In this document: piece by piece, positions 33,704 to 36,700 of the stretch
How positions within the stretch are numbered: the stretch's first letter is position 1
How the letters are laid out: every line of letters starts with the position of its first letter
Assembly (NCBI GenBank): GCA_903813345.2
Contig: CAIIXF020000011.1
Location: forward strand, 35,250,166-35,314,165
Source: Owenia fusiformis
Lineage: Eukaryota > Annelida > Polychaeta > Sabellida > Oweniidae
Reading direction: 5' to 3'
DNA: 64,000 nucleotides
Notes under the pieces: generated by a model
What the model was told of the DNA's origin: nothing
What the model saw: the letters and a program-made list of their open reading frames with translations, nothing else
Database searches by the model: none
Translations under genes and position numbers: made by a program

Positions 33704-36700
33704 ATGCTAATGTTAAGAACCTTAGGCTTGCTTAATCAGCAGGCAACTAAAATATGTCAGGCACAATCACTACAAAGAATGACACTTAGATTCTTGAATG
33801 TGACATATGATAAATCTAACTGGATAAACCATCAGATTGATACTTACCCTATGAAATACACTCATAAAAAATACCATACACCTCCAACATGTGTGTTTAG
33901 TAACTTCACAAGCTCACGATGTTTATCACAGGCAATAGGAAGTACATGTATAAACTATGAACTGCAAAATCAGCGAGGATTTATTCGCTTACATGGAAAA
34001 GATACAGTAGATTTTCTCCAAGGACTCATCACTAATGATATGTCATCTTTAGATGGAGATTGCAAAGCACTATATGCCATGGTGCTAAATATCCAGGTAT
34101 GGAGGTAAATTTCCAGGTATATGCAGAGGCCAGAGGTTGATTTTAGTTAACCATATCATTCATTGGACCATTCCTAGATTCATGAGTTTCTTAATCTATT
34201 GTTCTCTGATGGTATTAATAGTTAATAGTAATAATATTAAAAATAGTAATTATTAATAGTTTTTCAAGAAATATACCCCTTTACTGTTAATTAGGTTTTA
34301 TTTACAGAAAATGTAATGACTGCCAAATCAAAGCAAATTGCACACTTACAGTGTGATATTTTTAAAAGTTGGGATATTTTTTCAAAATTAGAGTATTTTT
34401 TAGATTTTGAGGAATTTTGGAGACAGAATCTTTGCAGTTAATTATTAGTGCCCAATGATCATGGGCTCTCTTGAAAAAAGTTTGGTCAATATTTGTATAT
34501 GCTATTATAATTGTGTTGTTTATAAATCTATTTTCATCACACCCTTGTTTAATTTCAGGGCAGGGTGCTGTATGATGTCATACTGTACAACATATCTTCA
34601 AATGAAAGTGAACCAGCTATCCTCCTTGTTTAATTTCAGGGCAGGGTGCTGTATGATGTCATACTGTACGACATATCTTCAAATGAAAGTGAACCAGCTA
34701 TCATCCTTGTTTTATTTCAGGGCAGGGTGCTGTATGATGTCATACTGTACAACATATCTTCAAATGAAAGTGAACCAGCTATCCTCCTTGTAATTTCAGG
34801 GCAGGGTGCTGTATGATGTCATACTGTACAACATATCTTCAAATGAAAGTGAACCAGCTATCATCCTTGTTTTATTTCAGGGCAGGGTGCTGTATGATAT
34901 CATACTGTACGACATATCTTCAAATGAAAGTGAACCAGCTATCATCCTTGTTTTATTTCAGGGCAGGGTCCTGTATGATATCATACTGTACGACATGTCT
35001 TCAAATGAAAGTGAACCAGCTATCATCCTTGTTTTATTTCAGGGCAGGGTGCTGTATGATGTCATACTGTACAACATATCTTCAAATGAAAGTGAACCAG
35101 CTATCATCCTTGTTTTATTTCAGGGCAGGGTGCTGTATGATGTCATACTGTACAACATATCTTCAAATGAAAGTGAACCAGCTATCCTCCTTGTAATTTC
35201 AGGGCAGGGTGTTGTATGATGTCATACTCTACAACATATCTTCAAATGAAAGTGAACCAGCTATCCTCCTTGAATGTGACAAAGAAATAGCAACAGAACT
35301 ATACAAAACACTTAAAAAGTATAAAATTAGGAAAAAGGTTTGTTATTATTTGTGTTCCTACATTGTATTATGTTTATATTTAATGAAATCATGTGTCTTT
35401 TCTTATTAGAATAGATACCCATTATTAAAATGTTGTCACATTGAATTTGGTTTGTTATTTTTTGTTCCTAATAATGTTTATAATTTAATGAAATCATGTG
35501 TACAATCATTAGTTCAAGAGTTTGTGTGACTTGCCAAAAAAAAAATTATCACTCAACAGATTTTAATACAAACTCAGGCTTTCATTGGACAGCCTAAACA
35601 GGCCACATCAGAGGTCATAACCAAAATTATTTTTCTGATCTATTCACAAGCTTTTCCAATGTTTTATGAAAGATGGGGAAGATATCTGTATGACTTAGAA
35701 TGCTGAATTCTACCAGAATTTCTTGCTCCAGTATATGTACACGAAAGAAAAGTTGTAATTTTGTTTTATTTAATTGATTTTGTGAGTGACATGTTTCCAC
35801 ACATGTTTCTTAGATATGCATATTCCTTTTTAACCATAACATTCATAGAAACTCAAAATTTTACACAGGTGAAGCTTGAGCCCTGTTCTGATGAGTATAA
35901 GTTATGGACTATATTTCCCAATGATCTTCACGCAGTATTAGACAGCAATATCACCTCTAGTGGGTCAATAGAACAGAGAGAAGGTCTTGTAATTGCTGAA
36001 CAAGATCCCAGGCTGAAGGACTTTTGTACAAGGATGGTGCTGGACAGTACAATGAAAGGTATTTATGATCTCCAATAAATTTTATAACTATACAGGGTAT
36101 ATTCAATGGCTAAAAAGAGGCGGGGTAAATTTCAATTTTTGTATACTTGTAAAATCATTTACTTTTTTTTGTAGTGTTATAATCACCATTTTGGTATCTG
36201 ACATTCTTTCTGGGTGCTAATCTTATGTTACTACCCCGTCTGAAGTATTTTAATAGTTTACAAGATTGGTTAGTAGAAAAATTCTAGAAACTATTGCTTA
36301 CTGTAACATACCTATTTCAGGATCAGATTATTTACCTGTTGGTGCTACAGAGCCATCTATAGCCCAAGCTTACAACACTAGGAGGTATATACATGGGGTA
36401 TCTGAAGGAATACTAGATCTTCCAGTAGGCAAGTGCACTCCCTTGGAAAGTAATGCTGTATTTTTAAATGGAGGTAAGTGTATTATGTTTCATTAGATTA
36501 TCTAACATTGTTTCAGTAAACTCAAATATAGTGAACTTGGGTGTTTAATAAGCATGCAACTGCAAAAAGTTCAATCTGTGTTTGACCTTGATTTGATCGA
36601 GCAATGAGAGATTGACCTTGCATGACTTCAAGCAATGGCCTTTGAAAATGATTTAAAGTGTGCGCCTGACCCGGCTACGTATAGCACAGAGTTTATACTG

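Follow-up and report, generated by a model that had tools for sequence, protein, structure and literature searches.

Tandem arrays that lie across exon-intron boundaries have been described in amphioxus under the name of mirages, the globin gene BflGb6 being the notable case (PMC3087553). According to the available passages of that paper, the BflGb6 units form a minisatellite-like tandem array in which an intron's 3' end and the 5' part of exon 2 are repeated with AG and GT signals. The units are 150-160 bp long, number 6 and 3 on two haplotypes, and are homogenised inside the array with exclusion of the boundary copy; RT-PCR suggested that the gene is regularly spliced. PGBD5 was added as a lancelet mirage, with Adh and TnC cited, in PMC3902484. 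The available parts of PMC3902484 and PMC3087553 report no aberrant mRNA for the Adh3, TnC and PGBD5 mirages, and describe somatic length changes at Adh3. Outside lancelets, a potato RdRp gene has a duplicated intron end and exon start, in this case a single duplication with a putative branch site inside it and a GTAAG donor, and the new intron is spliced (available text of PMC4974935).

The array that we describe here, in the IBA57 gene of the annelid Owenia fusiformis, is of the mirage kind already known from lancelets and, as far as the literature was searched, brings it to a new phylum. As in BflGb6, the tandem duplication spans an exon-intron boundary and copies the intron 3' end with the 5' part of exon 2, the minisatellite-sized units carry splice signals (nine TTTCAG), and the inner units are homogenised whereas the boundary copy (u9) is excluded. 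The units are shorter than those of the cephalochordate (79-81 bp), and there are eight extra ones. They leave the best predicted branch-point candidate outside. The array shares with Adh3, TnC and PGBD5 the position of tandem repeats over splice boundaries and, judging from the accessible parts of PMC3902484 and PMC3087553, differs from PGBD5 in that the copies of the latter are imperfect. NAGNAG tandem acceptors also compete with each other, but they lie three bases apart in the available account (PMC3250501). With spacings of 79-81 nt, the IBA57 acceptors do not belong to that class. A minisatellite in human IFI6 (6-16), which Turri is said to have described in 1995, reportedly multiplies splice donors in a coding gene; it differs from the IBA57 array in lying on the donor side and in having a short unit. 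Among the literature matches listed we found no mirage outside lancelets, a weak negative, with subscription papers mostly beyond the search. The available text on earthworm metallothionein genes reports minisatellites in their first introns and names none across a splice site.

An intact IBA57 gene with nine acceptors before exon 2

The window, that is, the whole 64-kb stretch of DNA analysed, carries on its plus strand an intact IBA57 (CAF17) gene of six exons encoding 398 amino acids (Table 1). IBA57 is regarded as necessary for animals. The predicted protein matches human CAF17/IBA57 (6qe4) with an E-value of 2.6e-57 (residues 90-393), in a long alignment that includes the KGCYIGQE stretch and crosses the exon-2 junction without a repeat. 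Together with the C-terminal barrel PF25455 (Pfam), this match identifies the protein as a member of the IBA57/CAF17 family. When the 498-Mb assembly was searched, a search in which a missing match is not proof of absence, the array DNA was found at one place and 14 of 14 matches to the protein fell at one locus; these two queries found neither a second IBA57 copy nor a haplotype with another array length.

Table 1. Features of the IBA57 gene and of the array before its exon 2 (window coordinates)
Feature	Position	Strand	Remarks
IBA57 exon 1	33704..34096	+	From the first ATG in the open frame up to donor CAG/GTATGG; human CAF17/IBA57 match from residue 90
Best branch-point candidate (tttcAtca) in the original end of the intron	34536	+	Predicted; 22 nt upstream of acceptor 1 and 7 nt outside the repeat
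CCTTG, intron-side microhomology partner	34543..34547	+	Array start
Unit 1	34559..34639	+	81 bp, tail A, in-frame TAA
Unit 2	34640..34720	+	81 bp, tail B
Unit 3	34721..34799	+	79 bp, tail C, frameshift
Unit 4	34800..34880	+	81 bp, tail B
Unit 5	34881..34961	+	81 bp, tail B
Unit 6	34962..35042	+	81 bp, tail B, most diverged
Unit 7	35043..35123	+	81 bp, tail B
Unit 8	35124..35202	+	79 bp, tail C, frameshift; its tail serves as acceptor for the real exon 2
Authentic IBA57 exon 2	35203..35337	+	Length 135 nt; phase 0 at both ends; from acceptor 9 to donor GTTTGT
CCTTG, exon-side microhomology partner	35268..35272	+	Array end
IBA57 exon 3	35869..36058	+	Gene model join
IBA57 exon 4	36321..36473	+	Gene model join
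IBA57 exon 5	39194..39293	+	Gene model join; KGCYIGQE stretch in human match
IBA57 exon 6 and stop	39774..39999	+	Gene model join; CAF17 C-terminal barrel PF25455

Nine TTTCAG/GGCAGG acceptors (the slash marks the splice site) precede the sole complete exon 2. The first exonic base of each of acceptors 1-8 opens the unit of the same number and that of acceptor 9 opens exon 2 (Table 1), with successive spacings of 81, 81, 79, 81, 81, 81, 81 and 79 bp. TRF gives the array a period of 81, 9.1 copies, a 96% match and a score of 1313. Since it scores 1313 at one of its two periods and 1326 at the other, the highest values of any tandem repeat in the window (the next is 1207), we do not regard it as a product of chance. 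It extends over 730 bp, from the CCTTG in the intron to the one in the exon, and this 5-bp microhomology is taken to mark the original duplication junction. Each unit is built of a 69-nt phase-0 piece of the exon and a tail of 12 or 10 nt. The 12-nt tail is GTTTAATTTCAG in unit 1 (type A) and GTTTTATTTCAG in units 2 and 4-7 (type B), and the 10-nt tail GTAATTTCAG (type C) is found in both 79-bp units, 3 and 8. The order of tails along units 1-8 is thus A, B, C, B, B, B, B, C.

Units 1-8 differ from one another at a mean of 2.00 of 69 positions (2.9%). The real exon (u9) differs from them at a mean of 3.50 (5.1%); these differences include two private bases, each a synonymous change. Neither private base occurs in any of u1-u8; homogenisation has thus left out the boundary copy, which is also the pattern reported for BflGb6. 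Amino-acid-changing sites make up 4 of the 5 variable sites within u1-u8 and 0 of the 2 in u9, numbers that are too small to demonstrate neutrality. A near-palindrome, GTATGATRTCATAC, lies at 34570-34583 and at the same place in every unit, and it allows the units to pair mutually in a predicted fold; it is a possible driver of slippage. A Pfam Kelch_4 match on the open frame of the repeat has no stretch that passes alone, and we regard it as a side effect of the repetition. Crude tests at random positions, which gauge how common tandem repeats are rather than whether the IBA57 array is real, show that such repeats are not rare: owing to other arrays in the window, 12 of 300 and 15 of 400 positions there equalled or exceeded the score of the true exon-2 acceptor.

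When each of the nine acceptors is read to the donor at 35337, only acceptor 9 gives an open frame. The frame of acceptor 1 is ended by the TAA in its own tail, those of acceptors 2-3 stop after the frameshift of unit 3, and those of acceptors 4-8 after that of unit 8; the exons that would result from the upstream acceptors measure 214-779 nt, against 135 nt from acceptor 9. This is expected when an intron end and an exon start are duplicated, since the one complete exon then comes last in the array. The stops and frameshifts follow in turn from the 10-12 nt of intron copied with each unit, and selection is not needed to explain them. We also paired 18 acceptors, namely the nine main ones and nine at an AG lying 5 nt further into each unit, with each of three candidate donors of exon 1. 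Only 2 of these 54 one-step combinations are open, and both end in unit 9. The first is the expected splice (398 aa). The second, which is the only one in which the additional AG keeps the gene open, joins the donor GAG/GTAAAT (34104) to the unit-9 AG at +5 and gives 399 aa, with GR becoming VWR (translated by hand). For splicing in two steps by way of internal GTs, with 60 nt or more excised, 14 of 252 paths are open, all finishing at acceptor 9.

These results bear out the preliminary description of the locus. It had proposed nine stacked acceptors arising from tandem copies of intron end and exon start, and all nine stand within the span 34559-35337 that it gave. Its claims that acceptor 9 alone encodes IBA57 and that units 4-7 stay open until the frameshift of unit 8 are borne out by the translations. 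Its eight units of 79-81 bp also stand, and what it gave as an acceptor plus the first 70 bp of the exon is more exactly the 69-nt piece with its 12- or 10-nt tail.

Choice of acceptor and expected origin of the array

The unit copies only 16 nt of the intron, and for this reason the best native branch-point candidate, the predicted element TTTTCATC at 34531-34538, was left upstream of unit 1. Scored with yUnAy-type weights and a single spacing rule, as a prediction only, the best candidates reach 4.3 for acceptor 1, 3.3 for acceptors 3 and 5-8, and 2.1 for acceptors 2, 4 and 9. Under the same rule the other acceptors of the gene score 4.3 (E3), 4.6 (E4), 2.9 (E5) and 4.7 (E6). The AG-free stretch is 76 nt before acceptor 1 and 19-21 nt before acceptors 2-9 (19 nt for acceptor 9). 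With the branch-point candidate outside the unit, acceptor 1 is thus predicted to be the best placed and acceptor 9 to be among the three poorest. If the rule of the first AG after the branch point (described in the available text of PMC1431707) were strict, it would select acceptor 1 and destroy the message; effects beyond this rule are reported in the accessible part of PMC7317903.

RNA structure hiding the decoys could have been a way out, and we rejected it. The array folds more strongly than its shuffles (z -4.78, 20 shuffles), as would be expected anyway from a repeat bearing a palindrome. In the predicted fold the AG is fully paired at acceptors 9, 2 and 4 and is freest at acceptor 1, so that predicted folding fails to explain the use of acceptor 9.

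We nevertheless infer that acceptor 9 is used, because the gene is otherwise intact. The reading that we favor, with a probability of roughly 85%, is a mirage-type minisatellite without selected function, in which acceptor 9 is most likely the one spliced. A segment comprising 16 nt of intron end and about 65 nt of exon start would have been tandemly duplicated at the CCTTG microhomology. Unequal exchange or slippage could then have expanded and homogenised it to eight extra copies. Exon 1 would be joined to acceptor 9 with the help of pairing with the exon-2 donor 135 nt away, i.e., by exon definition, and this pairing across the exon most simply accounts for the presumed use of acceptor 9. 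At most, some leakage to the upstream acceptors might produce stop-containing mRNAs that would be cleared by decay. The preliminary description had offered a young neutral satellite and a bank of decoys tuning dosage as alternatives, without the name of mirage or its literature. The former fits best and matches the amphioxus mirages as they appear in the available parts of PMC3087553 and PMC3902484. The latter gained no positive evidence from the analysis; it keeps a small probability because acceptor 1 has the best predicted branch-point candidate, with acceptor 9 tied with 2 and 4 for the poorest, and because the predicted fold does not favor acceptor 9.

Alternatives to a neutral array

The decoys could still act as a rheostat, with upstream acceptors sending a fraction of the transcripts to nonsense-mediated decay and the number of units setting the amount of IBA57. 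All eight upstream acceptors have kept their CAG and run into a stop, and predicted branch-point candidates are best at acceptor 1 and usable at acceptors 3 and 5-8, with only low scores at 2, 4 and 9. However, intact AGs are expected in an array with so little divergence, the stops follow from the copied intron tail, and the units give no sign of selection, although the sites are few. Published mirages, too, are reported without aberrant mRNA in the available passages of PMC3087553 and PMC3902484. Hence, we consider such a rheostat improbable. A broader version would have acceptor 1 kinetically favored, as the native branch point lies outside the unit, and productive splicing obliged to get past eight decoys. 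Slippage between animals or even cells would then change the number of units and thereby the output of IBA57, and boundary arrays would recur in the genes of annelids, supplying variation in expression as well as new introns; we give this equally little credence.

The array might alternatively be an intron in the course of birth. The units can be seen as 69-nt phase-0 mini-exons, each followed by a GT, of which distant ones could be joined to acceptor 9 to add repeats of 23 to 27 residues, as the open two-step paths would allow. A potato gene did gain an intron from a similar boundary duplication (available text of PMC4974935), and a route of this kind was suggested by the authors of the amphioxus work (available passages of PMC3087553). 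Against this, the internal donors CTT/GTTTTA, CTT/GTTTAA and CTT/GTAATT look poor by eye, adjacent mini-exons are just 10-12 nt apart, and an added repeat would sit within a stretch of 13 residues that is conserved in the human alignment. This makes an ongoing intron gain very unlikely at present.

If acceptor 1 were used instead, as the predicted branch point and the AG-exclusion argument would favor, the assembled haplotype could be a null or weak allele that exists beside a normal one. Yet the gene is intact elsewhere, and only synonymous changes separate the coding copy from the commonest array core; a damaged allele thus seems to us a slim prospect. Finally, an assembly artefact or collapsed heterozygosity, in which the true locus would have one or another number of units, is suggested by the fact that short arrays can be misassembled, as BflGb6 was in the amphioxus genome draft (available passages of PMC3087553), but it is hardly probable given distinct unit variants mixed in a definite order, a length within the span of long reads and a single place in the assembly. 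The odds of these alternatives overlap with those of the neutral mirage-type array, as a damaged allele and an artefact can each be compatible with it.

Boundary repeats and other features in the window and the genome

At two further boundaries of the gene we considered repeats and did not retain them. At exon 1, a 20-bp tandem copy (34079-34098 and 34099-34118, 85% alike) could have been a mirage on the donor side, and an imperfect copy of the start of intron 2 lies 112 bp on (35337-35353 and 35449-35465). Random positions reached similar scores in 28 of 400 and 81 of 300 cases for the former and in 26 of 400 and 28 of 300 for the latter. Because of this, and because ten boundaries were tested, we do not claim a donor-side mirage.

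The window has other repeated sequences. An 86-bp minisatellite of 5.0 copies (99% alike) occupies 62741-63171, in an apparent intron of a minus-strand gene; it starts just past a donor-like GTAAGGGG, and no exon sequence is apparent in its unit. Two near-identical linker histone H1 frames lie about 6.4 kb apart on the minus strand, at 6842-7396, the frame whose family was assigned by profile, and at 13218-13772. Each has a similar 47-bp array nearby (7910-8156 and 14285-14484). Frames resembling a non-LTR retrotransposon are found at 21978-25617 (minus strand), with the endonuclease domain PF14529, reverse-transcriptase-like sequence by eye, and a zf-RVT match below the cut-off.

The sample that we used for recurrence elsewhere in the genome comprises 59 other loci and 202,773 bases: four earlier loci, 25 ABC matches and the best 30 of 106 P450 matches, all of them best matches rather than random loci, several being paralogues or overlapping. 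The P450 and ABC matches are spread over C1-C12 and one small contig. With the 36.7-Mb length of C12, the highest coordinates on C1-C12 sum to at least 426 of the 498 Mb, which makes about twelve chromosomes likely; for Owenia fusiformis, 12 chromosome-scale scaffolds and 505.8 Mb are reported (PMC9977687). An array with a period of at least 20 is present in 25 of the 59 loci, and in 1 of the 59 an array touches the matched exon. In that one locus, an ABC transporter (L008, 1-3189, minus strand; C12, about 12,569,588-12,569,629; also L061), three stacked AG/AATGTGTCA, in steps of 21 and 20, sit at the start of the Walker-A exon, and here too only the last is productive. The first copy reads NVSPNI and then a stop, the second is out of frame to a stop, and the last gives NVSFSVNPGEVVALVGPSGGGKSS. 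A further AG/AATGTGTCA lies about 1.24 kb upstream, beside what looks by eye like a decayed copy of the exon. In a separate scan, the matched exons of the sampled loci were examined for longer direct repeats. It picked up nothing at this locus, whose copies are too short, and one weak case (L009), a partial exon copy 168 bp away. The abundance of minisatellites in the sample and this second stacked exon start speak for the mirage-type reading; the Walker-A exon is one example and not a rate.

The Pfam family "Annelid erythrocruorin linker subunit C-terminus" is represented by exons on C6, with three matches among six candidates, and one of these loci also carries an LDL-receptor A module. Against the PDB, the longest piece matched hemoglobin linker with an E-value of 0.0025 and two linker L2 chains at about 0.09, with one unrelated chain between them. 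Searches for mitochondrial COX1 and for the GFP family gave no match; the second negative is weak, as its control produced no hit either.

The IBA57 array carries the mirage phenomenon of lancelets to another phylum, in a single-locus gene with eight extra acceptors, and it is most likely neutral. Since acceptor 1 is predicted to be the best placed and acceptor 9 to be among the three poorest, correct splicing of this gene would make a sharp test case. If acceptor 9 is correctly spliced, the locus would offer a natural experiment that speaks against a first-AG rule in its strict form and for exon definition by the downstream donor. If correct splicing fails, it would be a natural dosage variant of IBA57. 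A boundary array of this kind also provides raw material for intron gain.
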